From Thermoplasmatales archaeon SW_10_69_26 (lineage in GTDB: Archaea; Thermoplasmatota; SW-10-69-26), in assembly GCA_003009755.1 (NCBI GenBank), contig PXUB01000034.1, positions 1 through 47,530 of the forward strand: 47,530 nt of DNA, written 5' to 3'. Of the stretch, positions 3,370-44,800 are shown one piece after another; positions within the stretch are counted from its first letter, which is position 1; every line of letters begins with the position of its first letter. Position numbers and translations under genes: made by a program. The notes under the pieces are model-generated. The model did not search any database. It was not told the origin of the DNA and saw only the letters and a list, made by a program, of their open reading frames with translations.

Positions 3370-4734
3370 TCAGCGGGCGCGGGCCCGACCGGCGAGCGCG
3401 AGCGCGGCCATCAGCGACGCCAGCGTGACACCCATGCCGAGCGGGACGGCCGAGGGGCCCTCGCCGTCGGCGGAGGCCTCCTCGAGGTCCGCGCCGGTGG
3501 AGGCGTTGTCGGGGGGCGTGGTCGCGGTCCCCTCGACGACGGCTCGCGAGCTGTCGGGGTGGAACAGGGCCGCGGCGTGGCCGCGCAGCGGGTGCACGGC
3601 GTCGTGGACGAGCCCGTCCTCGGTGACGACGCCGGGCTCGATCGTGTGCTGCTCCATGAGGTCCTTGACCTCCTCCTCGTTCGGGAGCTCGTAGGCCTTC
3701 GCCAGATCCCCGGTCGTGTTGCCCTCGACGTACTTCTCGGATGGCAGCTCGACGGCCAGCTCGGCGCTTTTCTCCTTCGCCGTCGAGAACCGGTCGGCGT
3801 GCTGGTCGACGTACCGCGTGGCGGCGTCCATCACGACCCGTTGGATCTCGATCCGTCGCTCCGGCGTGTGGAACTCGTTGGGGTACTGGTCGACGCGCGT
3901 CTCGATCAACAGCCCGGCCACGTTGTGAAGGCCGTAGTGGTTGCGCAGGATGCCGGGGTCGGGGCCGCCGGCGATCTTGTCGACGCCCTCGTCGTTGACG
4001 GTGACCTCACCGTACTCGTTGACGCTGTAGCCCTCCTCCTCGACCTGAGGCCAGATGCCCTGGTACATCAGGTCACTCGCGGCGTCCAGCGTCGGGCCGC
4101 GCACGTTGCCGTGGATCGGGTACAGGGTCAACAGATCGTGGTCGTAGGTCCGCACGGGCACGGGGTTGCCGGGACCGAAACCGCCGTACTCGTGGTGGTC
4201 GAGCGCCACGTCGATGTCCCAGTCGTTGATGACGCGGTGCACGGCCTCGGCTTCGGGCGTCTCGAGGTCGATGTGGTCGCGGTTGATGTCGACGCCGTCG
4301 GCGTTGCCGCGCTGGAAGGCCTCGCTGCCGTCGGGGTTCACCATCGGCATCACGACGAGCACCTGGTCGTCGAGCCGATCGGTGACCGGTCCGCCGGCGG
4401 TGACGTTCTCCAGCAGACGGATCGCGGCCGGTGTGCCGGCCGGCTCGTTGCCGTGTTGCTGGGTCAGGATGAGCGTGACGGCGCGCTCCTCGCGCGGCGT
4501 CGTCGCGTTCGGATCGGCGACCTCGGCGACCTTGATCGGGCGATCCTCGGTCGAGGTGCCGACCTGGGTGACCTCGATCCAGGGATGCTCGTCGAACGTC
4601 GACAGCCGATCTTGCACCTCGTCGGGGCCGGGGAAGGCCTCCTCGTCCTGCGAGAGCTGAGCTCCCACGGTCCCGGCGATGCCGGACAAGAGGAGCGGTA
4701 CCACCAGCGCGAGCGCGAGCCGTCGACGTGCCAA
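3370..4734 (-). CDS. Secreted M14-family zinc carboxypeptidase with C-terminal anchor
   Basis: Predicted metallocarboxypeptidase acting outside the cell on peptide C-termini. Residues 5-25 (from the TTG start) form a signal peptide. The zinc motif HGNE gives His94 and Glu97. MVNPDG (131-136) and VDINRDH (148-154) are M14 substrate-pocket motifs, DHHEYG (179-184) supplies the third zinc His, and Glu278 in LLIETR is the likely catalytic Glu. A hydrophobic segment followed by GRARAR ends the 454-residue protein, suggesting membrane anchoring. The longest frame starts with GTG at 4779, but the TATA-like element at 4768-4776 would then lie inside the gene. A TTG at 4734 has GGAGG seven bases upstream, so I chose it. 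Substrate unknown; a succinyl-type M14 deacylase is a less likely alternative. Confidence 0.88.
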   Translation of the reverse strand: MARRRLALALVVPLLLSGIAGTVGAQLSQDEEAFPGPDEVQDRLSTFDEHPWIEVTQVGTSTEDRPIKVAEVADPNATTPREERAVTLILTQQHGNEPAGTPAAIRLLENVTAGGPVTDRLDDQVLVVMPMVNPDGSEAFQRGNADGVDINRDHIDLETPEAEAVHRVINDWDIDVALDHHEYGGFGPGNPVPVRTYDHDLLTLYPIHGNVRGPTLDAASDLMYQGIWPQVEEEGYSVNEYGEVTVNDEGVDKIAGGPDPGILRNHYGLHNVAGLLIETRVDQYPNEFHTPERRIEIQRVVMDAATRYVDQHADRFSTAKEKSAELAVELPSEKYVEGNTTGDLAKAYELPNEEEVKDLMEQHTIEPGVVTEDGLVHDAVHPLRGHAAALFHPDSSRAVVEGTATTPPDNASTGADLEEASADGEGPSAVPLGMGVTLASLMAALALAGRARAR

Positions 4735-8087: not shown

Positions 8088-8096
8088 CGTTGAAAC
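8088..8096 (+). promoter_or_regulatory. TATA-like element of SEC-C gene
   Basis: CGTTGAAAC is centred about 28 nt upstream of the ATG at 8120. The same core is found before the PLD-like gene at 11264. Confidence 0.5.
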
Positions 8097-8119
8097 GGTC
8101 CCCGAAGCCTGCCCTGGCT

Positions 8120-9127
8120 ATGGGGAAGGTCGGCCGCAACGATCCCTGCCCGTGCGGGTCGGGGACCATGTACAAGAAGTGCTGTCTGCCCGAGGACCGG
8201 GCCCAGGGCATGGTGAAGGGCTCCAGCCCCGACGTCGAGGAGCGCATCTCTCGGATCCCGGACATCAACGAGATCGACCTGTCCACGGGTTCCCCCACGC
8301 CCTCCTCGCCCACGCGACGGTTCCCCGACGAGCTGGCCAAGCGGGTCGAGGCGGTCGACCGGTTGCTGGACGAGAAGGGCTTCCCCGGGCCCTGGGCCGA
8401 ACGCCAGGACGCGTTGACCGAGACCCAGGCGGCCTTCGAGCAAGCCTGTAGGGCTCGATGGGCGCAACGTGCCGGCGAGAAGGACCGGCTCGTGCAGGCC
8501 CGGGAGCGGTTGCTGGAAGCCGACGACGAGTCCCGCTTCACCAAGCGATACCAGGAGGGCTACCAGGAGCGCCGCGAGGCGCTGGCCAAGCCGCTCGAGG
8601 TGTTGACCGAGGCCGGTGAGGAGGGCATCCCCCACCTTGGCGTCCGCCTGAACGAGGACTCCTGGGCCAGCGTGCTGGCCATCGAGACGTTAGCCGAGAT
8701 GCCCTCGAGCCCTCTCAGAGATCGCGCGATCGTGGAGGCGTTGTTCACGCCCGGCGAGTGGCGCAACGACACCGCCACGCGCGCCAGCCAGGAGATGAAC
8801 CCGGAGGCCTCGTGGGCGGCGTTCGAGCACGTGGTCCACCAGGCCAGCAAGGACGGGGTGGAGCTGCAGCACTTCTTCTGGAGCGGGCTCTTGGAGGAGG
8901 AGCCGGCCACGTTGAGCCAGCCGTTGCGCCCGGGGCCGCGATTCGGGGACGCGATCGAACTGTTGTACGACGAAGGGCACCTCGCCGCGCTCAGCGACGG
9001 TCTCTTCCACGTGCTGGATCCCTCCCTGGACGGGGTCGAGTCCGTGGAGGCCTTCCTCGACGACGAGGGCGTGCAGGCCGCGATCGAGCACATCCGATCG
9101 ACCGAATCCCCGCGGATCGGGCACTGA
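8120..9127 (+). CDS. SEC-C motif protein with helical repeat body
   Basis: A 335-residue protein. The N-terminus GRNDPCPCGSG...YKKCC (Cys10, Cys12, Cys21, Cys22) is the SEC-C zinc motif first described at the SecA C-terminus and found in many otherwise unrelated proteins. The rest is helical and acidic, with stretches such as GIPHLGVRLNEDSWASVLAI that resemble HEAT-like repeats. The role is unknown; SEC-C usually marks protein or ribosome contact. The ATG at 8120 was chosen over the upstream frame opening because it begins exactly at the motif and lies 28 nt after a TATA-like box. Confidence 0.83.
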   Translation: MGKVGRNDPCPCGSGTMYKKCCLPEDRAQGMVKGSSPDVEERISRIPDINEIDLSTGSPTPSSPTRRFPDELAKRVEAVDRLLDEKGFPGPWAERQDALTETQAAFEQACRARWAQRAGEKDRLVQARERLLEADDESRFTKRYQEGYQERREALAKPLEVLTEAGEEGIPHLGVRLNEDSWASVLAIETLAEMPSSPLRDRAIVEALFTPGEWRNDTATRASQEMNPEASWAAFEHVVHQASKDGVELQHFFWSGLLEEEPATLSQPLRPGPRFGDAIELLYDEGHLAALSDGLFHVLDPSLDGVESVEAFLDDEGVQAAIEHIRSTESPRIGH

Positions 9128-9874: not shown

Positions 9875-9988
9875 TCGGACGAACGGATCCTGCGGTGGAC
9901 ACCGTTCGTCCTCTCCCGAGACGCGACCGGTGTCCCCGCGTCTCGGGATGAACCAAGGTTCAAATCCGTCGGGCTTGGCTGCTATCGA

Positions 9989-10063
9989 CGCGCCCGGCGG
10001 GATTTGAACCCGCGCTCACCGGCTTAGGAGGCCGGTGCCATATCCGGACTTGGCCACGGGCGC
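9989..10063 (-). tRNA. tRNA-Arg, anticodon CCU
   Basis: 75 nt fold into a full cloverleaf: acceptor GCGCCCG/CGGGCGC, discriminator G, D stem GCCA/UGGC, anticodon stem CCGGC/GCCGG with loop CUCCUAA, five-base variable loop, and T arm GCGGG-UUCAAAU-CCCGC. Bases 34-36 are CCU, reading AGG (arginine). No CCA is encoded and no intron is seen. A TATA element lies about 30 nt upstream at 10091-10098. The gene is embedded in repeats of its own sequence: its first 23 nt plus promoter are duplicated at 10160-10240, and its 3' end recurs twice downstream. Confidence 0.95.
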
Positions 10064-10120
10064 AGAGCGTGGAACAGGCACCGGCCTCCGTGATATAAGG
10101 CCGGTGCCATCGAGAGGCTC
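10040..10120. repeat. Direct repeat copy A: tRNA 5' end plus promoter
   Basis: 81 bp match 10160-10240 with two mismatches. The unit contains the first 24 nt of the tRNA (its 5' end at 10063), the leader and the TATA box. An inner 11-bp inverted repeat (10077-10087 with 10098-10108) flanks the TATA box. That inverted repeat also equals the tRNA's own anticodon-arm sequence AGGCCGGTGCC at 10029-10039. Confidence 0.9.
10091..10098 (-). promoter_or_regulatory. TATA box of tRNA-Arg
   Basis: Minus-strand TTATATCA lies 28-35 nt upstream of the mature tRNA 5' end. It sits in the loop of an 11-bp inverted repeat. Confidence 0.6.
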
Positions 10121-10157
10121 CCCGAGCCTCGAGAGAGGACGGATCTGCGATCCGTCC
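10114..10157. repeat. Two adjacent hairpins between the direct repeats
   Basis: GAGGCTC-CCC-GAGCCTC (10114-10130) and GGACGGATC-TGC-GATCCGTCC (10137-10157) are perfect hairpins. On the minus strand they directly follow the truncated tRNA copy and could terminate or stabilise its transcript. Confidence 0.6.
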
Positions 10158-10159
10158 GA

Positions 10160-10240
10160 ATATCCGGACTTGGCCACGGGCGCAGAGCGTGGAGCAGGCA
10201 CCGGCCTCCGTGGTATAAGGCCGGTGCCATCGAGAGGCTC
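10160..10240. repeat. Direct repeat copy B: truncated tRNA 5' part plus promoter
   Basis: 81-bp near-identical copy of 10040-10120, offset by 120 bp. It retains a TATA-like TTATACCA and, at 10161-10183 on the minus strand, the first 23 nt of the tRNA. The tRNA sequence then stops and is replaced by two hairpins. If transcribed, it would give a tRNA 5' fragment rather than a tRNA. Confidence 0.88.
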
Positions 10241-10581: not shown

Positions 10582-10773
10582 ATGGCTCACACCTACACTT
10601 GCGACTACTGCGGCGAGGAGATCGATCGCGGAGACGATTCAGCCAACCTGCAGCTCCAGACGGTCGAGCAGGAGCCGACGTGGGAACGGCACTTCTGCTG
10701 CACCTCGCACCTCATCAACTGGATCAACGAGGATCCGACCGAGCTCGAACCCCACCTGGCCTTCGGCGACTAA
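10582..10773 (+). CDS. Small zinc-ribbon-like protein
   Basis: A 63-residue cytoplasmic protein with paired cysteines: CDYCGEEI near the N-terminus, then HFCCTSHLINWI. This forms a treble-clef or zinc-ribbon-like metal site followed by a helix, as in many small archaeal zinc proteins. The ATG at 10582 has a strong Shine-Dalgarno GAGGTGA five bases upstream. Partner and role are unknown. It converges on the Cys-rich microprotein gene, and the two stop codons overlap. Confidence 0.75.
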   Translation: MAHTYTCDYCGEEIDRGDDSANLQLQTVEQEPTWERHFCCTSHLINWINEDPTELEPHLAFGD

Positions 10774-10877
10774 GCCCCAGGCGGATCCGAACAACAGCAC
10801 GCCTCGGGCTCCGGGCACGTCTCGACGCGGACACCATCCTCCACGACGCACTCGCAATCCGCACATCCCGTGCGCAC
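10770..10877 (-). CDS. 35-residue cysteine-rich microprotein (metallothionein-like)
   Basis: A short frame missed by length cut-offs. It begins with GTG at 10877 and encodes 35 residues, seven of them cysteine: C5, C8 and C10 in CADCEC, C21 in ETCPE, and C27-C29 in ACCCS. A perfect Shine-Dalgarno AGGTGA precedes it by six bases and overlaps the stop region of the upstream CRM gene, whose TAG lies 10 nt before the GTG. This is strong sign of a translated operon gene. The C-x2-C-x-C start and C-C-C end suggest a metal-binding peptide of metallothionein type, or a very small zinc finger. No homology is claimed. Confidence 0.62.
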   Translation of the reverse strand: MRTGCADCECVVEDGVRVETCPEPEACCCSDPPGA

Positions 10878-10887
10878 GTGAGATCAC

Positions 10888-11160
10888 CTATCCGCGGTAG
10901 AGGACGACGGTGTTGCCACGCACCTCGATCAGGTGCGCCTCCGTGCGCTCGGCGAGGTCCTCCCCGGCCTCCTCGGTGCCGGTCTCGGCTGCCGCCGATC
11001 GCAGCACCCGGACCTTGACGAGGTCGTCGCTGGCCAGCTGGCGGTCGACCTCCTCGACGAAGCCCTCCGAGAGGCCGGCTTTGCCGACCTGCAGCTCGGC
11101 CGACAGCTGCTGAGCTTCGCCGCGAAGCTCCTGGACCCGGTCCGTGGGCAGCTCGTCCAT
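10888..11160 (-). CDS. YhbY/CRM-domain RNA-binding protein
   Basis: A 90-residue protein that is essentially one CRM domain, a fold that binds RNA and in bacteria (YhbY) associates with the large ribosomal precursor. Family features are LRGEAQQLSAELQVGKAGLS with the conserved G-K-x-G-L, LVKVRVLRSA in the middle, and ERTEAHLIEVRGNTVVLYRG at the end. I chose the ATG at 11160; the preceding GTG (11163) is also possible. It probably leads an operon with the Cys-rich microprotein. Likely role: ribosome or tRNA/rRNA maturation, inferred from family. Confidence 0.85.
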   Translation of the reverse strand: MDELPTDRVQELRGEAQQLSAELQVGKAGLSEGFVEEVDRQLASDDLVKVRVLRSAAAETGTEEAGEDLAERTEAHLIEVRGNTVVLYRG

Positions 11161-11232
11161 CACGCCTCGCCAGCAGCCGCTCCCATGTGAACGTTCCCCC
11201 CTCGGCCCCGGTCACCACCGCTTGCGGACAAC

Positions 11233-13775: not shown

Positions 13776-14195
13776 GAGGTCGACGGCGACAACGCTTGCA
13801 ACAGGCGCACTTGTGGACCTTGCGTCGTCACCGGCCTGCGGGCGGCCTCGCCGTGAGGGGGGTCACGGAGACCGCTCTCCCTCGATTTGGTGAACATTTC
13901 CTGGCCAACCGCTCGTAGGGGGAGACCGTGGGACCGGAAATGTTCTGGTGCGCCGGTCTAAGGTGGGCCATCTTGCTGTACGAATCGGAGATGCGCAGCC
14001 GAGATCGGTCCGGACGGCGGACCGATGCTCGGCCGTTGTCGGCCCCCGTGAGATCTCACGAGAGGGTTGCCGTCCTCGGGCTCGGCGACCGTGCCACGCT
14101 CCCTCGCACGAGCCTTCCGGGCTCGTAGGTTCGGGAGACCGTACCTGGTCTCCCGAGACCCGCGAGAGCCTAAGCAAAACAAGACCGGCAGTCTA
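13776..14195. repeat. Intergenic hairpin repeat, copy 2
   Basis: The left end (13776-13799) and right core (14104-14195) match copy 1 at 1-24 and 172-265; the interior is unrelated and longer. The core repeats both hairpins, including the 10-bp stem 14131-14140/14147-14156, and the AGCAAAACA...CCGGCAGTCTA tail. An extra inverted repeat in the interior pairs GAACATTTCC (13892-13901) with GGAAATGTTC (13936-13945). The last bases of the repeat form the TAG stop of ABCE1, so the element abuts the 3' end of a minus-strand gene, as copy 1 nearly does. No gene is supported in 13634-14192. Confidence 0.75.
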
Positions 14196-15992
14196 GGAGA
14201 CGAGCTCGGGGTCGTAGTAGTACTCGCCCTCGCGCTTTTGCTCCTTGTCCTTCCGGGAGCCGGGCTTGTTGATGCGCGGGCGCTTGGTGTCGCGGTCCCG
14301 GCGGAAGGTGACGTCGACGTTCGCGAGGAACCGGTTCATGCCATCGCGCATGTCCATGGGGCCATGCGAGGTCCCCTCGACGCCGGGCTCGCCCTCGAAG
14401 ACCATCAGGCTGTCGGCGATCAGGTCGATGAGGTAGACGTCGTGGTCGACGACGAGCGCGCTCGTCGACCGCTGCTCCATGACCCGGCGCAGGGCCTTGG
14501 CGACGAGCATGCGCTGGTTGACGTCGAGGAAGGCGCTGGGCTCGTCGAGCAGGTACAGGTCGGCGTCCCGGCCCAGGCACAGGGCGCACGCGACGCGCTG
14601 CAGTTCGCCGCCGGAGAGGTCGTTGACGTCGGTGCTCAGCAGGTCGTCCAGCCCGAGCGGGCGGCCGACCTCGTGCTGGAAGAACGGGTCGTCCCAGGCG
14701 TCGGCCATCGTCGAGTAGAACATCGACTCGACGGTGCCGTCGAACTCCGCCTTCAGGTACTGCGGCTTGTAGCTGACCTGCACGTCGAGGTCCAGCGTGC
14801 CCTCGGTGGGGTCCTCGCCGCCGGCGAGCAGCTTGACGAGCGTCGTCTTCCCGATCCCGTTCGGACCGAGCACGCCGACGACCTCGCCCTCGTGCAGGGT
14901 CCCGCCGTCGGTGTGGAACCGGAACCCGTCGTCACCGTACTGCTTGGCGATCTCGCCGTAGGTGACGAGCTCGCCGCGCTCGAACCGCTTCCGCGGCGGG
15001 TGCGCGGTGAACTCGATCTCCTCCTCGCGGATTCGCACGTTCTCCTCCGGCAGGAACCCGTCGAGGTAGGCGTTGATCGACCCGCGCGTGCTGCGAGGCA
15101 GGCCCATGATGCCGTAGGCGGCCTGCTCGCCGTACAGGACGTGCACGACGTCGCTGACCAGGTCGAGGATCGCCAGGTCGTGCTCGACGACGAGCACCCG
15201 GCGGTCGGCCTCGTCCACGAGCTCGCGGATGAGACGCGCCGTCGTCGTGCGCTGCTCGACGTCGAGGTAGCTGGACGGCTCGTCGAACATGTACACGTCG
15301 GCGTCCTTGAGCGCGGTCGCGGCGATCGCGACGCGCTGCAGCTCGCCGCCGCTGAGGTTGCCCAGCTCGCTGTCCAGCGTGTGCTGGATCTGAAGCTGGT
15401 CGACCAGCTCGTCGAGCTTGCCCCGCTCGTCGACGCTGGCCAGCAGATCGCTGACGTTGCCGTCGACGACCTTCGGCATCTGGTCGACGTACTGCGGCTT
15501 CGTGGCGACCTCGATCTCGCCCTCGGCCACCTGAGCCAGGTAGTCGTGCAGCTCGGTGCCCGCGTACTCGTCCAGCACGTCCTCCCAGGAGGCCTCGGAG
15601 GCCCACTCCCCCAGGTTCGGGGTGCTTCGACCGTTGAGGAAGGACAGCGCGGTCGACTTGCCGATGCCGTTGGGGCCCAGCAGGCCGACGACCTGGCCCT
15701 GCTTGGGGACGGGCAGTCGGAACAGGCGGAAGGCGTTCTCGTCGTACTGGTGGACGAGATCCTCCTCAAGCTCGTCGGGCAGGTTGATGATGTCGATCGC
15801 GTCGAACGGGCACTTGTTGACGCAGATCCCGCACCCGATGCACAGCTCCTCGCTGATCACGGGCTGGTCGCCCGGTTCGTCGTGGTAGATCGTCTCCGGG
15901 ACGCCGGCCCGCACCTTGGGACAGTAGTTGATGCACTCGTAGTTGCACTTCTTCGGTTGGCATTTGTCCCGGTCGAGGACGGCGACGCGCAC
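14193..15992 (-). CDS. rli1: ABCE1/Rli1 ribosome-recycling ATPase
   Basis: Cytoplasmic twin-ATPase that splits post-termination ribosomes in archaea and eukaryotes. All 599 residues fit the family. The N-terminal iron-sulfur domain has eight Cys: C11, C16, C20, C24 and C51, C54, C57, C61 (CIGCGICVNKCPF). Both ATPase domains are intact: GPNGIGKST, LSGGELQRVAIA and VYMFDEPSSYLD, then GPNGIGKTT, LSGGELQRVACA and LYLLDEPSAFLD. The start is a GTG at 15992 that begins exactly at the family N-terminus (MRVAVLDRDKC), with a TTAAAAG box about 29 nt upstream (leaderless). The stop TAG lies inside the intergenic repeat. Confidence 0.98.
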   Translation of the reverse strand: MRVAVLDRDKCQPKKCNYECINYCPKVRAGVPETIYHDEPGDQPVISEELCIGCGICVNKCPFDAIDIINLPDELEEDLVHQYDENAFRLFRLPVPKQGQVVGLLGPNGIGKSTALSFLNGRSTPNLGEWASEASWEDVLDEYAGTELHDYLAQVAEGEIEVATKPQYVDQMPKVVDGNVSDLLASVDERGKLDELVDQLQIQHTLDSELGNLSGGELQRVAIAATALKDADVYMFDEPSSYLDVEQRTTTARLIRELVDEADRRVLVVEHDLAILDLVSDVVHVLYGEQAAYGIMGLPRSTRGSINAYLDGFLPEENVRIREEEIEFTAHPPRKRFERGELVTYGEIAKQYGDDGFRFHTDGGTLHEGEVVGVLGPNGIGKTTLVKLLAGGEDPTEGTLDLDVQVSYKPQYLKAEFDGTVESMFYSTMADAWDDPFFQHEVGRPLGLDDLLSTDVNDLSGGELQRVACALCLGRDADLYLLDEPSAFLDVNQRMLVAKALRRVMEQRSTSALVVDHDVYLIDLIADSLMVFEGEPGVEGTSHGPMDMRDGMNRFLANVDVTFRRDRDTKRPRINKPGSRKDKEQKREGEYYYDPELVS

Positions 15993-32835: not shown

Positions 32836-35800
32836 GTGAGCCATCGATCTGCTTCGACCCCGAGCCTGTTCGGACCAGCTGCCAAGCTCTCCGAAACGAC
32901 CCTCGTCCCGCTGTTCCTGGCGATCGCCATGGTCGCCGGACCGTTGACCAGCGTGGCCCCCCTCGCGTCCGCCTCGACGGCTGACGCGGGCGGCGTGGAC
33001 GACGCGATCGACTGGGTCGACGCTTGGCTCGACGACCACGACGACGACGCCAACCTCGTCGACGACCGAGCCGAAGCCGAGGCCCAAACGCTGATCGACG
33101 AGGACCGGGGCGGGGCTCCCGTCGGTGTGCTCGTCACCTACGACCACTGGCCCGACGACCACGATCTCGACCGGCTCGTCGCCGAGCACGGCGCCAGCCA
33201 GACGTACGCCTTCGAGATCGTCCCGACCGTCCAAGCTCAGGTCCCCGCCTCCCAGGTCTCCCAGCTCGGACAGGTCCCGGGCGTCGTCGCGGTCGAGTAC
33301 GACTACCCGATCGAGCCCGTCCTCGACGTCAGCTCCCCCGCCTCGCAGGCGCAGGAGCCCGCCAGCACGGGCAGCGCGTACGCCGGCAAGACGGCCCAAG
33401 CCCTCGGCTACGATGGCTCCGACACCGTGGTCGCCGTCCTCGACTCGGGCGTCCAGGACCAGCACAGCGCCTTCGCCGACACGCGCTTCGTCACCGGCGC
33501 CGACGTCTCCTCGCCCGGCTCGACCGGCGACGGGACCGGCGATCCCGGCGACTGCACGAACCCGCCCGACGACAACGGCCACGGGACGCACGTCGCCAGC
33601 ACCGTGCTCGGCGAGACCGCCGAGTCCGACGGGACCCGCCTGCCGGGCACCGCGCCCGGCGCCGGTCTCGTGGACGTCCGCATCGCCGCCAGCGGCGCCT
33701 CGATCGGCGGCGCCCTGCGCGGGTTCGAGTTCGTCGAGCGGTGGAACGACGCGCTGCGCGAGGGCGACCCGCTGTGCCCGCTCGCCAACGCCGACGACCG
33801 GATCGACGTCGCCACGCTGAGCTTCGGCTCGCTGAGCCCCGCCGAGGGCGACGCCGGCAGCACCGGCGAGGCGATCGAGCGCCTCAACGAGCAGGGCGTG
33901 GCCGTCACCGTCGCCGCCGGCAACTGCGGCCCGCAGGGATCGGCCGGCTGCACGACGACCGACAGCGAGGAGACCGTCACCAGCCCCGCCAACGCCGAGG
34001 GCGCGATCACGGTCGCCAACTCCAACGACCGCGAGACGATCGATCGCGGCGACGACCAGGTCAGCGCCAGCAGCTCGCGCGGTCCGATCGCCGGCAGCGC
34101 CTCCGACGCCAGCGACCTCGAGGACCGGTTCCGCAAGCCCGAGATCGCCGCGCCCGGCACCCAGATCACGGCCGCCGGCCTCTCCCCCGGCACCGTCTCC
34201 ACGCTCAGCGGGACCAGCATGGCGACCCCGCACGTCGCCGGCATCGCAGCCACGCTCGTCGAAGCCGGGCGCGACGTCGCCGACCAGACCGGCGGCGAGA
34301 ACCTGATGCTCCCCGACGGCACCGCCTACAACGACGACAGCTACGACGCCGGCGCCAACCCGGTCGTGGATGCCATCATCCACGCCGCCGAGTACAAGAC
34401 CGACGGCGTCCCCCAGGACATGCGGGACAAGTGGGAGGGCCCCGGCGCCGACGACCTCCGCTGGAACAACGGCTACGGCTACGGGCACGTCGACGCCTTC
34501 AGCGCACTCTGCTGGGCCTGGCAGAACGTCCTCCAGCCCGGCGGCGCCGCTCCGACCGACACCGTCGAGTCCGCCTGCGGCCTCGACGACCCGCTCACGG
34601 TCGACCTCGGCGGACCCTACACCGTCGAAACCGAGCGTCTCGTCACCCTCACTGCCGACGCGACCGGCGGCCAGTCCCCCTACGAGTACGCCTGGGACAC
34701 CGACGACGACGGCGCCTTCGACGACCGCACCGGCGACGCCATCCAGGTCTCCTACCCGACGACCGGCGCCTTCACGGTGAGCGTCAAGGTCTTCGACGAC
34801 GCCGGCGCCTCCAGCCAGGACGCGACGACCGTCGTCGTCAGCGAGGACGCCGACGACGGCTCGGGCCTGATCGAGATCACCGAACCGGACCGCGACGAGA
34901 CGGTCGACCCCCAGCTCGTCGTCGAGGGGATCGCCGGCTCCGAGGGCAACAGCCCGCCCTCCGCGAGCTGGACCCACACCAGCGACGGACTCACCGTCAG
35001 CTTCGACGCCACCGGGTCCACCGACCCCGACGGCGACCCCCTCACCTACGAGTGGACCTTCGGCGACGATGCCACCGCGCGCGGCGCCACCCCCGACCAC
35101 ACCTACGCGACCGGCGGCGACTTCACGGTCTGCCTGACCGTCTCCGACGGCTCGCTCACCGACGAGAGCTGCCGACAGATCAGCCTCACACGCCAGGACC
35201 CCCTCTCGCTCGTCACCGACCCCAAGGGTGACGCCGCCGGGCCCGTCACCGGCTCCAACGTCGACGAGCTCGACATCACCGAGGTCTCCGCCATCCAGAA
35301 CGAGGATGGATCGTTCACGATGGTGCTCTCGGTCAACGACCTCCAGCAGGCCACCGTCCCCGCCACGGAAGGCGGCAACGGGGCCATCTGGCGGGTGACG
35401 TGGGACTTCCCCGGCACCGACGGCCACTTCGTCTCCTTCGAGACCGGCCTCGTCAACACGACGGACCCCGGCAGCGTCTACACCGACTGCAGCTACGGCG
35501 AGTGGGACGGCAACATCGCCCAGTCCCAGGGCACGGCCCCGTGCACCGTCGACTACGGTGCCCCCGCCGAGATCCACCTGACGTACCCGGCCAACGCGAT
35601 GGCCGAGAACGGGTACGCCGGCGACGAGCTCCTCTCCGGCGTCCAGGGCCTCAGCTACACCTACCAGGGCAGCCCCCCCGACGCCTCGGTCAGCGCCGGC
35701 CTGACGACCCAGGTCGACGACACCGCCTCCGGCACGTACGAGCTGACCGGGACGAACGCCGAGCTCGCCGAGATCGGGCTCGGCTCCCGCGCCGACGCCC

Positions 35801-38800
35801 GCCAGGCCCCCGAGGAACCGCCCGAGGACCCCGAGATCGTGGACGAGGGCGGTGACGTCAACGGCGACACCGTGCCCGCCAGCCAGATGGACATCCAAGC
35901 CGGCTGGTTCGACGCGGACGCCTCCCACCTCTACGTCGGCCTCGAGCTCGACGACATCCCCCAGAACACGAACACGACGGCCTTCACGAGCTACCGCGTC
36001 GGGTTCCAGCCGGACTACCAGGTCGAGGATCCGACCTGGGGCGGCACCGTGCCCGAGGACGCCACGCTGACCGAGCTGCGGACCTTCGCCGCCTTCAGCC
36101 CGCTCGCCTTCGACAACCTCACCGAACCCACCACTCGGCAGTCCCCCTCGTTCGAGCTCCAGCTCACCTACGAGCAGAACGGCCGGTCCTTCTTCGCCAC
36201 CGTCGGCGACATCGAGGAGGCCAGCATCGATCCCGAGACCGACATCGTCTGGTGGGCCGTCGACCGCGACCTGCTGCAGTCCCCGCCGCCCGACAGCCGC
36301 ATCGTCGAGACGACCGCCACGAGCGCGCCCGCCATCGATGGCCTGCTCACGTTCCAGGGCGCCACGGCCGACACCGCTGGCCCCGGTGATCCGTTCTCGT
36401 TCCCCAAGAGCGCCGACCAGATCCCGCCGACGGTCACCCTCGACGCCTCCCCCGTCAGCGGCTCGGCCCCCCTCGACGTGACCTTCCAGCCCGACACCGA
36501 CGCCGACGATGTCGCCTCCTGGACGATCCGCTACGGCGACGGCGCCTCCGAGTCCGGCACCGGCGGTCTCCCCGCCGAGCTCGGCCACGTCTACGACGCC
36601 GCGGGCGAGCACACCGCCACGCTCGAGGTCACCGACAGCAACGGCCAGACCGGCACCGCGAAGGCGACGGTCAACGTCACCCCGCCCGAGGGCCGCTCCG
36701 TCCGCGTGACGGCCGGCGACCTCGACCCCGTGTGGGCCAACTGCGAGGACGCCTGCAGCACCTGGACGGCGGCCCTCGACCTCGACGCGCTCGAGCCCGG
36801 CACCACCAGCCTCACCGCGACCCTCGTCGAGGACGGCGAGGTGCTCGGCCGCGACACCGTCGCCGTCGAGGTGACCCCCGACGACGGGCTCACGGTCCTC
36901 GCCCCCGAGGAGGACCAGCGCCTGCCGCCCGGCGACGTCCGCGTGCAGGGCGAGATCGACGACACCGATCGACCGCCGCGCGCGATGCTCGACGCCGAGC
37001 CCCAGCGCGGCTCCTCCCCGCTCGACGTCACCTTCGACCTCGACGGCGCCGACGACGAGGGCGTCGTCTCCTGGCGGCTGCTCACCGACGACGGCACCGT
37101 CATCGACGGGACCCAGCTCCCGATCGAGGCCGAGCACACCTACGACGAGCCCGGCAACTACACGGCCACCCTGCAGGTCACCGACACGGCCGGCCAGCGC
37201 GACACGAGGGCCGTCCCGATCGAGGTCGACGACGAGAACGAGGCCCCCGAGGCCCCGAACTCGCCCACGCCCGCGGACGGCTCCGGGGACGTCCCCCGAC
37301 CCCCGACGCTGAGCTGGGAGGCCAGCGACCCCGACGGTGACGAGCTCGTGTACGACGTCTACCTCGACACCTCCGCCCAGCCGGACACCCTCGTCCGCAC
37401 GGGCCTGGAGGACCCCTCGTTCGTCGCCACGGACCTCGAGCCCTCGACCACCTACCACTGGCAGGTCGTCGCCGACGACGGCCTCACCACGACCGAGGGC
37501 CCGGTCTGGAGCTTCACGACGGCGGCAGCCTCCGGGCTCGCCAACTCCCCGCAGACCGTCATCGCCTACATCGACAGCGGCGGGTTCCCCTACCACGAGC
37601 AGTTCCAACGCGCCGAGCACGACCAGCACCCCAGCGAGTACATCGAGGGCTACCCCGCCGACGCCCAGGCGCTGGACCTGTGCTTCTTCGACCAGGCGTC
37701 CGGCACGGTCGACCGCAGCAACTGCCCCGACTCCCCGACCGCGGCCGCCGAACAGGACGTCGACGAGTGGCGCAAGCTCGGCGTCACCGGCACCGGGCAG
37801 ACCGGGCCCGGCGAGGGCGATCTCGCCTACGTGCCCGGCACGAACGTGGTCGGCGCGATCAGCTTCGCCCACGACGGCGACGCCGACTACCCCACCCTCG
37901 ACGGTGACAAGGGCGACGGCGACGCCCACGGTACGTGGGTGGCCGGCTCGATCGCCGGCCAGACGACCGGCTCCTGCCCCGACTGCCTGATCGTCACGAT
38001 CGAAGCCGACAGCGTCTCGGCCATCGAATCCGGCTGGCAGTGGGCCGCCCAGCAACCCTGGATCGACGGCATCACGTCCAGCGTGTACGCCGGCATCTGC
38101 ACCCCGGTGGGGGTCTGCCAGAGCATCGACGGCTTCGCGACCTCGATCGCCAGCTCCACGCAGACGGCCGCCGAGAACGGCAAGCTCGTCTTCGAGGCCG
38201 CCGGCAACGGCGTCGGCGGCGCCGGCCTCGCCACCTCGACCACGGCGCCCGACTCGAACTTCGCGCCCTGGTCGATCTCCGTCGGCTGCTCCTCCGAGAG
38301 CGGCCACTCCTGCCTCTACAGCGACGAGCCCGCCCCGATCACCGCCACCGGCACACCTCGCCAGACCGCCGACCCGGGCACCTACGACGGCACCAACGAC
38401 CCGGTCGGGACGAGCTTCTCCTCGCCCAGCGCCGCCGGTGTCGCCGGCCAAGCGCTGGTGTCCCTGCGCGCCGAGCTCGGCGCGACGACCGAGGGCCCGG
38501 CCGCCGACGCGAACAACTCCCTCGTCGAACCCGCCAGCGACGCCACCCTCCCCGAGGACACGGCGCTCACCAACGGCGAGCTGACGAAGAAGGAGCTCGA
38601 GGAGGCCCTGTTCAAGACCGCCCGACGCGGCGTGCTGCCCTCGACGCCCGCCTGGATCGTACCCGTGGAGACCCCCGACTCGCCCGCCGGCTTCCTCAAG
38701 GGCGGCTACGGCGACGTCTACCGCGGCGCCTGGGGCGTCAACCACGAGTCCGCCTCCAGCTCGGACTCGACCGCCGGCGCCGTCTCCGCCACGCTCCTCG

Positions 38801-41800
38801 GCGAGACCGAGATGCCGAACCGGTACCTCGAGGAGACGTACTGGGAGGACGCCGTCGAACCGATGCAACGCCAGGTCCACGGCGAGGAGCCCGAGGAGCC
38901 CGACGACGACGCCTGGCCCACCGACGACGAGGCCAGCCCCGATGGCCTCGACGGCCACCAGGGCGGATCGTCCACCACCACGACCAGCTCCTCGGGGGAC
39001 CTCGCCCAGCCCGCGTCCACGCGGCCGCAGGGCGACCAGCCGACGCCCGACAACAGCCGGCTGTACCTGCACCACGACCAGACCGACGCCGAGAGCGTGA
39101 GCGACGGCGCCGACCTCTACATGAACACGATCCCCGACCCCGGAGACGGCTGCAGCGGCCCCGGCTGCCCCGACACCACGCCCTGGGGCGCCACCGGCGC
39201 CGGCACCAGCGGCGAACAGCAGACATACGAGATGGATCACCCCGAGCTGGCTGACACGCTGCTCCTCGACGAGGACGGCCAGATCACCGTCCACGTCGAA
39301 GCCACCGGCATCTTCGACAACCCGCCCACGCCGACCGAGGTCGACGTCACGCTCCAGGATGGCGACGGGCTCGTCGCCACCGGCCAAGCCGACCGCGAGA
39401 TCCCCGGCTCCGCCGACCACGCCACCTACGAGGCCACCCTCGACCCGGTGGCCTACACCATCGAGGACACGCTGACGCTATCGATCACGTGGGATGACCG
39501 GCAGTACAGCTTCCACGTCCAGAGCCACGGGGCCTCGTGGGTCGATCTCCCGCTCACGGGGAGCGCGGACGAGCTCGACTACGAGCAGGACAGCTTCTAC
39601 CTCGACGACCTCGACGCGAACATGGGCAACGGCGAGACGGTGCCGCTGACCCGCGACGAGGCCGACCTGCAGGGCGATCCCGACACCGGGACCACCTACC
39701 TGCGCGCCTACCGCAACGGGTTCACGTTCAACCTCGACAGCGGCCAAGACGACGCCGCAGCCGGCGAGAACGTGCTGCTCGGCAACGACGGCTCCGCCAC
39801 CCTGTGGGTCTGCACGGCGCCGGTCCTCTCCTACGGCGCGACCGAGTTCACCGTCGAGGTCGCACTCCAAGCCGGGGACACGCCGCTGGGCGGGGGCTCG
39901 GTCACCCAGACCTACGCCGGTGCGCACGACGGCTCCTCGCAGGCGATCACCGTTCCCTTGGACCTGCACGAGACGCTCGTGCCCGAGGACGAGCCGCTGA
40001 CCGGCTCGATCACCGTCGAGGGCGCCACGGGCTTCTACACCTCGAACATCGCCTTCTGCGGCGGCAGCGCTGACAAACCGTGGAGCCTCGACCTCCTCTC
40101 CGCCGAGCTGGGCACCCAGCTGCCCAGCACGGACCTCACCGAGGCCCCCGACGGCACCCTCGCGGGCGAGACCCCCCTCGAGGGCACCTACGAGGCCCCC
40201 GAGGACCCCGGCCTCCAGCAGACCACCTGGTACGCGACGAACTTCGACCAGTGGTCCGAGGGCGACGCCGAAGCCCAGAGCCCCGAGCTGCGGCTCGGCA
40301 CCGAGGGGCCCGGGCCCGGCAGCGGCGGACCGATCCTGCCGCCCGAGGAGGACGGCTACACGATCGAGCTCACCAGCGAGCAGCCGCTGCTCGACGAAGC
40401 CGACGAGATCCTCGACGAGGGCGCCGGCAGCGCCCAGTTCTGGGTCACCGCCGCCGGCGGCGCGACCGACGTCCGCGTGGACCTGACCGCCATGCTCGAG
40501 GGCTCCAACGGCGACCGTCGCGTGCTCGGGGAGGGCTCCGTCACCAAGCACGTCGTCCCGCCGTTCGGGACCGTGCGGACCCTCACCCACGAGCCCTTCC
40601 GCGTCGACTTCGAGCCCGCCGTCACCGACGTCGCGGACGACGAACGTCTCGTCCTCCGCGCGCAGGTCACCAACGTCGGTCCGGCCACGACCACGCAGGT
40701 CACCTGCGTGTGCGGCGGCGAGGAGCGCCCGATCACCGTCAGCCTGCCGACCGACGACGCCGTGACGCCGAGGGATCCCCAGGTCCGCGTGACCGTGGAC
40801 GAAGCCATCGACCGCCGCGTCCCGGCCGACAGCTCCCCATGGAGCACCACGATCGACACGACCGAGCTCCCGGACGGCGAGCACACCATCACCGCCACGC
40901 CCGAAGCGACCTACGGCGACGAGACCCGCCAAGGCACGCCCCAGGAGGCCACCTTCACCTCCGACAACGACCTCTCGAACGAGGCGCCAAGCGCCTCGCT
41001 CGCGGTCGACCCGCTCAGCGGGACCGCGCCGCTCGCCGTGACGGCCAACGCCGACGCCACCGACGACGACACGCCCCGCGATCAGCTCTCCTGGACGCTC
41101 ACCTGGGGCGACGGCTCCGCCCAGGAGTCCGGCACCGGCCTCCCGGCCGAACTCACCCACGAGTACGCCGACCCCGGCGAGTTCACGGTGACGCTCGAGG
41201 TCACCGACGACGAGGGCGAGACCGGCACCGCGACCGCGAGGGCCCAGGTCTTCGCCCCCGCCGAGGAGAAGGTGATCGTCACCCTCGGCAACGAGACGAT
41301 CGAAGCCCAGGCCGACGCCGACGACGGCTCGCTGGCCGCGTGGCACGCCGACATCCCCAGTGTCGACCGTGGCCTGCACGAGGTCACCGTCGAACACGTC
41401 GAAGAGAACGCGCAAGAGACGACCGTGTTCGCTCGCGAGCAGCTGCTTCTCCGCGTCGAACCCTCCGGCGTCCCCGAGACCGCCATCGAGGGCCCCGGCG
41501 AGGACACCCGCGTCCACGAGACGACCCCCATCGAGGGCCGCATCACCGGGTACACCGGCGAGGAGGAGCCGACGCGAACGAGCACGTCCCTGACGACCGA
41601 CAGCTCGCAGGCCGCCGTGGCGCCGATCGTCCAGGACGTCGTCGACGCGGGCGAGCCCGCGCCCAGCGTGCCCGAGCCCGTCACGACCGACGCGCTCGAG
41701 CCCGCGCTCGAGCACCTCGTCGACGTGGCCGGCGGCGACCCCGAGCGCGTCAGCGACGAGCTCGACCAGGCCACGATCCCCGAGGAGGCCGAGACGCCGC

Positions 41801-44800
41801 TCGCCAGCCTCGCCGAGGCCGTCGCGCAAGCCACGGAGATGCGCCGCGAGGCGATCGATCTCTCGACGACCGAGCTCGAGACCGTCGAGCTCACGCCGAC
41901 GCTGCTGGAAGCCGTCGACGTCGACCACGCCCAGCTCGTCGAGGCCCAGCTGCTCGTCGCCACCACCGTCGACGAGCACCGCGAGAGCCTGGAGCAGGTG
42001 CCCGCGGAGGCCGACGAGGACGACGCCCCCGCCTTCGAGATCGAGGGCATCGTCGCCTTCGACAACGAGGGCGACACGACCTACGAGCCCGGGCACTACT
42101 TCCTGAAGGTCGACACCGCCGGCCAGGACACGCACCGCGACACCGCCGGCGGCGCCTACGGTCTCACTCTGGACCGCGACGTCTCCGTCTCGATCGACAC
42201 CGACGGCGCCGACACCTACGACGGCGACTGGTCCGCGCCTGCCAGCTCCTCCTTCGAGACGTTCCAGGGAGCGGCCACGAACGTCGGGCTCGGCCTGCTC
42301 GCCGACACCGTCGGCGACGACAGCTACACCGTCACCGGCGACGTCGCCGAGGCGACCAGCGACAACGTCCAGCGCGCCGCCCAAGGCGCCGGCCAGGTCG
42401 CCTCGGTCGGCGTGCTCGCCGATCTCGCTGGCGAGGACACCTACGAGGCCACGCTCACCGGCATCGACGACAACGCTGCATCCACGATGCTGGCCTCCGC
42501 GCAAGGCGCCGTGCACGACACCGGCCGGATCAACCCCGGCTACACGCTGCTGTTCGACCGTGAAGGCGACGACGCCTACGAGGCCACCTTCGACGGCGAC
42601 GCCGCCTACCAGGGCGACGTGAACCCTGTCACGGTGCCGTCGGTCGCCGCGCTCGTCGACGGCGACGGCTCCGACGACTACAGCCGCCCCGTCAACGGCG
42701 ACTACCTCGCGCGCACGACCGCGCCCGACACCGCCGCCGGCGCCGCCCACTTCCTCGACACCGCGCCCGAGGACCCCTCCGTCCACGTCCGCGAGCCAGC
42801 CGCGGGCGACACGGTCCGCCAGACCGCCGACGTCACGGTCGAAGCCCGCGACCTCGACGATATGCTGGGCACCTCCGGCGCCCGCTTCGTGACGCAGGTC
42901 GAGGCCGAGATCGGCGACAAGGGCTTCGTCGACCTCACCCAGCAGGGCGACACCGACCGCTGGACCGGCACGCTCGACCTCGCCGGCGAGGACGGCGCCA
43001 CCGAGCTCACCGCGCGCGCCACGAACGTCGACGGGAGCACGGCGACGGACACGATCACCGTCGACGTCAACAACGACCTACCGCCGACGCTCGCCGTCGA
43101 CGAGACGATCACGCGCGCCAGCCCGACCGAGGATCCCGCCGTCAGCCTCGACCTCTCCGGCACCGAGGACCCCGAGGGCTCCACGCTGGCCTACACGATC
43201 GCCTGGGGAGACGGCAGCGAGACCACGCGCACCAGCCCGCACGACGTCAGCGACGTCTCGCACACCTACGACACCGGCGAGTACACGATCGCGGTCACCG
43301 TCGAGGACGAGGCCGGCAACGCCGACGAGGCCACGCTCGACGTCGACCTCTCGCCGCCCGCGTTCGCCAGCGTCACCCAGGAGGACGTCCAGGTCGCGAG
43401 CGCCAACTACACCGTCGACCTCGACGACGAGGGCACCCTCGACGCGAGCCTCGACGGCGCGGGCACCGTCGACGTCACCGAGCAACCCAGCGCCTTCGAG
43501 GTCAACGCCACCGAGCTCGACGCCGCGACGACCTACACGCTGACGCTCACCAGCGCCGACGACCTCGGCAACGAGGCCCAGACCACCGAGACGTTCACCA
43601 CCTCCGAGCCCGACAACGAGCCGCCGACGGTCGCCCTGGACCTCGACGCCACCACGGTCCCGACCGGCGGCACGGTCGAGGCCACCGTGACGGCCGAGGA
43701 CCCCGAGGACGGCGCCCTCTCCGAGGCGACGGTCACCTGGGACGATGGCACGCAAGAGACCGTCGCGCTGACGAACGGCGAGGGCCAGGCTCGGCACACC
43801 TACGACGAGCGCTGCGAGTGCACCGTGCACGCCCAAGCCACCGACAGCGACGGCGCCAGCGCCTCCGACAGCGTCGACCTCGTCGTCGACCACGCTCCCC
43901 AGGTCACGCTCACCGTGCCCGCCAGCCCCGCGCCCGAGACCGACGAGCACACGATCGAGCTCGACGTCACCGACGCCGACGACGATCCGATCCGAGCCGA
44001 TCTGCGGCTCGAGGGCGAACCCGTCACCCTGCGCGAGGCCGACCCCGCGGACAACACGACGGACGACGGCAAGCTGTTCACCGCCACCGTCGACCCCGAC
44101 GCCGGCACCGTCACCGCGAGCGCCGACGTCCACGACGGTCTCCGCACGACGACCGAGGAGACCAGCTACACGGTGAACGCCGCGCCGAACGTGACCGGCA
44201 CCCTGTCCCCCTGGAGCGGCACGCAGGACACCACGTTCACCTACGATGCCGCGACGAGCGACGCCGACGGCGACCCCGTGAGCCTCACCCTCCTCGTCGA
44301 CCACCGGGAGATCGAGCTCGGCCCCGACCGCACCGCGCAGCTCGACCTCGACGACGGCCAGCACCGCTTCGCCCTCCTCGCCACGGACGGCTTCGACGAG
44401 GTCCGCTGGCCCGGCCCCGGCGCCTGGGCCTTCGGCCCCGTCGTCGGCAACCTCTCGCAGGTCGAGATCTCCGCCGACGGCACGTTCGCGGATCCGACCG
44501 TGGCCCAGACCGACGGCGACCTCGACGACTGGACCCGCCAGCTCGGGGACGTCGGCCTCGCCGAGGACCAGGCCCACGAGGTCCACGTCCGCGGCGTGGA
44601 CGCTGACCACGGCCCCGGGCCCGCCGCCACCGTGAACCTGACGATGGACCAGCTCCCGACGCCCAGCATCGAGGTCCTCACCGCCACGCCCGTCCGCACG
44701 GGCACCAGCCTCGACCTGCAAGGCTCGGCCGAGCCCAGCACCCACGGCGACGACGTGCCCCCGGAGAACCTCGCCTGGAGCTTCGGCGACGGCGCCACCG

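Follow-up and report, generated by a model that had tools for sequence, protein, structure and literature searches.

A seven-cysteine microprotein gene behind an archaeal CRM gene: a candidate family of minimal metallothionein-like proteins in archaea and bacteria

The window analyzed here, a stretch of 47,530 nucleotides from Thermoplasmatales archaeon SW_10_69_26, carries directly behind a gene for a CRM-domain protein a frame of only 35 codons, seven of which specify cysteine. This raises the question of whether so short a frame is a gene at all and, if it is, whether its product has to do with ribosome maturation, as its neighbor might suggest, or with metal ions, as its cysteines might.

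The microprotein frame and its immediate neighbors

The features on which the argument turns are the following.

10582–10773, forward strand: convergent frame of 63 amino acids, zinc-ribbon/TRASH-like, with weak, below-cutoff matches to DUF7576 and zf-FCS
10770–10877, reverse strand: coding sequence of the 35-residue, seven-cysteine microprotein, with GTG start and TAG stop, from direct reading and from homologues with seven cysteines at corresponding positions
10884–10889, reverse strand: Shine-Dalgarno sequence AGGTGA by direct reading, 6 nt 5' of the GTG and sharing bases with the CRM stop codon (10890–10888)
10888–11163, reverse strand: CRM/YhbY-domain gene upstream of the microprotein (PF01985, E 1.5e-22); co-transcription probable, association not conserved

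Direct reading of the reverse strand at 10770–10877 gives MRTGCADCECVVEDGVRVETCPEPEACCCSDPPGA, with cysteines at residues 5, 8, 10, 21, 27, 28 and 29, and bears out the anatomy described in the earlier note, namely the coordinates, the GTG, the AGGTGA at six bases, the seven cysteines and the 10 nt that separate the CRM stop from the start codon. Cysteine thus makes up 20% of the 35 residues, and the frame has the small size and conserved thiols of a metallothionein in the broad sense. No comparable cysteine-rich short frame arose when the window was shuffled 40 times under a first-order Markov model, versus one in the real sequence. The decisive test, however, was conservation: because the seven-cysteine layout recurs in other archaea and in bacteria, the reverse-strand frame is, on comparative sequence evidence, a genuine protein gene, and the suggestion that an uncalled cysteine-rich microprotein lies here holds. 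A scan for sigma-70-type promoters, which does not cover archaeal ones, found none for this copy; equipped with a Shine-Dalgarno sequence, it probably depends on the CRM transcript and is translated from there.

The 10-nt spacing invites the reading, put forward in the earlier note, that the microprotein is a partner of the CRM protein in ribosome maturation and couples zinc supply to ribosome assembly. A gene for the ribosome-recycling ATPase ABCE1/RLI nearby (14193–15992, reverse strand) and one bacterial copy upstream of obgE are in keeping with it. However, the sequence downstream of CRM is readable in 19 others of the phylum's genomes, none of which has a microprotein-type frame there (a twentieth genome, G005, was set aside because its CRM gene lies at a contig end), no homologue found elsewhere adjoins a CRM gene, and the obgE gene in question lies 178 nt from its microprotein copy. 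In the two carriers from the same class, G003 and G004, microprotein and CRM gene are on different contigs. Conserved linkage between the two genes therefore fails, and a CRM partnership is very improbable. Genomes with an intact CRM gene that lack the frame or its cysteines had been named beforehand as the observation to look for; such genomes, members of the same class among them, tell against the CRM link and leave the microprotein itself standing, as its cysteines are conserved where it was found, save for the last one in a divergent copy (G857). A convincing-looking operon can thus be an accident of one genome.

Similarly, the convergent frame, which has its own Shine-Dalgarno sequence (GAGGTGA), overlaps the microprotein by 4 nt at the stops, so that the shared 3' boundary claimed previously is real. 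The pairing of two metal proteins that it seemed to imply looks like a local accident, since the partner is an orphan without detectable relatives in 60 related genomes. A profile comparison of the microprotein with this zinc ribbon was not significant.

Distribution and conservation of the family

Profile and pattern searches recovered the layout CxxCxCxxE-x7-C-x3-5-CCC in five other archaeal genomes, which we infer to be of Thermoplasmatota type, and in about 20 bacteria. Specifically, a single-sequence search of 60 relatives returned two copies from the same class as the window genome, MKLVCADCGCLVEKGLVHERCTDPTCCCVALPSVRKASA in G004 (E 2.8e-4) and MKCAECDCVVEKDRRIVVCAADGCCCVDVPVAPDATRASDR in G003 (E 0.004), and three more carriers (G076, G388 and G008) emerged when a three-row profile was run against 389 genomes of the phylum. 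Weaker single-sequence matches in G001, G006, G009, G019, G022, G024, G031, G032, G052 and G056 had no seven-cysteine pattern where they were read. A 25-row profile over the phylum recovered just the six carriers already known (counting the window genome) and one weak partial match, which makes the family a sparse one here, with the proviso that the genomes are mostly MAGs and absences accordingly soft.

All six archaeal copies obey the rule C-[AS]-[DE]-C-x-C-x-[VI]-E-x7-C-x(3-5)-CCC. A degenerate DNA pattern for the first part of this rule, omitting the CCC, was scanned in 84,980 species genomes and matched 36 stretches, about seven being expected by chance; 18 of them run on into CCC at the right place, against a chance expectation of about 0.0005. 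These 18 comprise 16 bacterial records and the public records corresponding to G388 and G076. The bacterial carriers are mostly MAGs of Acidimicrobiia and other Actinomycetota, with one labelled Acidobacteriota. In profile searches, 8 of 247 genomes, query included, responded in the class of one record titled Acidimicrobiales (G395), and, with the number of candidates scored per genome capped, only the query itself did so among 396 genomes sampled across the phylum of G398. Four pattern matches on viral contigs were discarded, as the CCC part is absent from them, and plasmids and phages gave no match to a consensus query, so a mobile-element origin finds no support.

In an alignment of 25 archaeal and bacterial members, the seven cysteines are invariant and most other residues drift, apart from conserved A/S, D/E, V, E and G positions and a nearly fixed spacing. 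The divergent G857 copy has CC in place of CCC and lacks the last cysteine. In three of four comparisons of close pairs, the differences fall mostly at third codon positions. Annotation routinely passes over genes of this length, which is how a family of archaea and bacteria can be missing from curated libraries.

Start codons, fused forms and known families

If the start is taken as the most distant candidate codon that is no more than five codons from the first cysteine, it lies four residues before that cysteine in 22 of 26 members; G003 and G076 have an additional ATG two residues before it. In the bacteria, a TANNNT -10 box ends 6–8 nt 5' of the start in 14 of 21 members (shuffled upstream regions: mean 0.6, never 14 in 2000 trials), a placement that fixes the start codon independently. 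To judge by these positions, bacterial members are arranged like leaderless transcripts driven by a promoter of their own. Two otherwise conserved copies depart from the common start: G008 (about 4338–4345 of locus L146, reverse strand) has ATA at the position where its sister genome G388 has ATG, and G857 (about 4071–4086 of locus L147, forward strand) has no ATG, GTG or TTG there. Either could reflect use of a rare start codon, an error in the sequence, or decay.

In eight bacterial loci examined in full, the cysteine module is followed, with no break of the frame, by a SnoaL-like domain (PF12680, E 1e-9 and 5e-9 in the two fused proteins tested), so that the known SnoaL_2/NTF2-fold protein forms the C-terminal part and the cysteine module is an N-terminal addition outside curated families. 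AlphaFold2 models the fused protein as an NTF2 fold (pLDDT 90, pTM 0.83), with best structural matches to SnoaL/NTF2-fold proteins, and places within the module (pLDDT 84–88) a short hairpin that follows the CxxCxC knuckle. The 35-mer alone shows the same hairpin at only moderate confidence (pLDDT 72, pTM 0.38), and a search of this model against the PDB gave no match. Because AlphaFold2 is not reliable for deciding metal binding in such proteins (PMC11241148), the model geometry is given no weight here.

The fused and leaderless forms bear on a reading in which the peptide itself is inert. In mycobacteria, as summarized where PMC9031893 cites Canestrari et al. 2020, short leaderless polycysteine ORFs act as upstream attenuators, the speed of the ribosome on cysteine codons sensing cysteine and governing downstream genes; the actinobacterial members resemble them in being short and leaderless and in carrying a cysteine run. 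In contrast to the attenuators as that summary presents them, the microproteins often end operons, conserve non-cysteine residues (A/S, D/E, V, E, G) at near-fixed spacing, and at the eight loci are fused in frame to a folded SnoaL protein. A convergent gene comes next after the frame in the window, G388, G008 and G003, which leaves nothing downstream to attenuate. Gene order and fusion thus refute cis-acting attenuation at most loci, and as a general account it is scarcely credible.

Comparison with known families yielded no matching family in Pfam, NCBIfam or PDB; a Pfam search with 22 members at E<=1 returned only one chance match, to YPEH2ZP. The obvious candidates are the prokaryotic metallothioneins SmtA/BmtA (PF02069; PDB 1JJD, 6GV6/6GV7), which are likewise very small and cysteine-rich and to which the microprotein is alike in its probable handling of soft metals. 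They share with it a CxxCxCxV[DE] element, CPDCHCKVD in the Pseudomonas metallothionein versus CADCECVVE here, which is a resemblance only. The SmtA-type signature consists of CxCxxCxCxV and a YCSxxCA half, whereas the microprotein has seven cysteines rather than nine within 30–45 residues, no conserved histidine, no YCSxxCA half, and a CCC run. PF02069 was not detected in the window genome by a search in which Synechococcus elongatus was among the control genomes responding, and hhalign against SmtA and the Pseudomonas metallothionein was not significant (best E 0.0024 over 15 columns, probability 12%); the SmtA query matches 1JJD exactly. Membership in SmtA/Metallothio_Pro is therefore rejected: no profile matches, and only CxxCxCxV is shared. 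MymT, the mycobacterial copper metallothionein, is also actinobacterial, small and cysteine-rich with a CxCxV element, but its cysteine spacing differs, and the profile comparison was not significant.

The haloarchaeal C(P)XCG micro-proteins, such as HVO_2753 and HVO_0758 (PMC11241148, PMC10716476), are similar in being archaeal, shorter than 70 residues, often unannotated and built on a CxxCG knuckle. However, they carry two such motifs, with four cysteines per zinc, whereas the 25-member alignment has a single CxxC[GE]-type knuckle followed by C...CCC, which places the microprotein outside that class.

Gene neighborhoods and a putative metal-binding role

Genes around the homologues were called with a simple composition rule, and only those checked against Pfam or NCBIfam are named with confidence. 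Several of these neighborhoods point to metals. First, in two archaea of the same genus (G388, with a record titled Poseidoniia/MGIII, and G008), an ArsR-type HTH gene is followed by a CDF transporter (PF01545; the G388 copy matches NF033827 DmeF at 253.5 bits against a cutoff of 250), a 19-nt gap and the microprotein. Second, the G857 copy sits between a histidine-rich CDF gene and ArsI/CadI (NF041414, 183 bits), with ArsR and aquaporin genes next. Third, ArsP_1 and CsoR-type genes lie near the fused copy of G398. Another copy (G394) is found behind a cupredoxin-like lipoprotein. Most family neighborhoods, however, are not metal-related: besides the CRM gene of the window and the obgE of G905, one copy follows a type III restriction gene, and in G395 and G403 the microprotein gene closes an ATP synthase operon, starting 2 nt after atpC. 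The latter two neighborhoods are very similar, yet the records are titled Acidimicrobiales and Acidobacteriota, and one label may be wrong. As the association with metal genes was noticed after the fact, we regard it as suggestive.

Taken with the conserved cysteines, these contexts make it probable that the microprotein is a small thiolate metal-binding protein, acting as a metallothionein-like buffer or chaperone. The resemblance to metallothioneins noted earlier is therefore upheld as to role, by the conservation of the seven cysteines and by the CDF/ArsR, CDF/CadI and ArsP/CsoR contexts, and given up as to membership in SmtA/Metallothio_Pro. Specifically, the product would be a soluble cytosolic mini-protein of 30–45 residues (35 in the window), in which inspection reveals no visible signal peptide in any sequence, and the CxxCxC knuckle, a beta hairpin (VVEDGVRV), the fourth cysteine and the CCC could combine into a single small metal-thiolate site or cluster. 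The ions bound there may be those of soft or borderline metals (Zn, Cd, Co/Ni or Cu(I)), which the protein would either hold or pass to an efflux system. In some bacterial lineages, the same module is joined to the N-terminus of a SnoaL/NTF2-fold protein, and in the window the gene has ended up behind the CRM gene, with translation from the CRM transcript probable. Counting against a metal role are the lack of histidine in the peptide and a cysteine number below that of SmtA; moreover, several of the small zinc fingers predicted in Haloferax do not bind zinc (PMC11241148).

The main rival, unlikely but to be taken seriously, is a structural or regulatory zinc-knuckle mini-protein, comparable to the haloarchaeal C(P)XCG micro-proteins, that holds one zinc for folding, contacts protein or nucleic acid, and stores no metal. 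Dozens of such micro-proteins occur in Haloferax (PMC11241148). CxxCG-x-V-E-x-G resembles known knuckles, the best PDB profile match being the N-terminal ribbon of the TFIIIB 50 kDa subunit (E 0.039, 18 residues); the hairpin modelled after the knuckle is confident in the fused protein; and the non-metal contexts (ATP synthase, obgE, CRM), together with the SnoaL fusion, would suit an adaptor module. Yet seven invariant cysteines, CCC included, exceed the need of a single zinc site, the second CPxCG motif that defines the class is missing, and the CDF/ArsR operon of two archaea and the CadI/CDF cluster favor metal handling. Alternatively, the thiols could serve redox chemistry or a cysteine store, with adjacent cysteines forming disulfides that buffer oxidants or sulfur, as CCC and CxxC are able to do; in G004, a DSBA-like thioredoxin gene lies 60 nt downstream of the microprotein. 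This is the only locus with a redox neighbor, and an odd number of cysteines, all invariant, fits such chemistry poorly, so we consider it improbable.

On the metal-binding reading, we tentatively propose, at somewhat short of even chances, a new family of minimal, cross-domain metallothionein-like proteins with the core C-x2-C-x-C-x10-C-x3-5-CCC, which would be among the first such proteins to be described from archaea (no paper on an archaeal metallothionein was found in the literature searched), would in some marine archaea act as the last component of ArsR-CDF efflux operons, and would serve as a metal-binding N-terminal module on a bacterial SnoaL-fold protein. If so, the module could make the SnoaL-fold protein metal-responsive. 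If the microprotein binds metal, archaea would possess a protein akin to metallothioneins and associated with efflux operons, and the peptide would provide a natural scaffold of very small size for binding metal. The fused SnoaL form offers a handle on function in cultivable relatives.

Beyond the microprotein, three other features of the window were observed. At 10040–10240, two direct copies of 81 nt, 98% identical and 120 nt apart, repeat the 5' part of a tRNA-Arg(CCT) gene (9987–10064, reverse strand) and its upstream flank, and look like a partial tandem duplication or a tRNA-linked remnant. On the forward strand, 8090–9127 encodes a protein whose N-terminal part carries a SEC-C-like metal-binding motif, GRNDPCPCGSGTMYKKCC, with about 300 amino acids after it. 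Finally, an open frame of about 4898 codons (32836–47529, forward strand) runs to the contig end and apparently encodes a giant secreted or surface protein.
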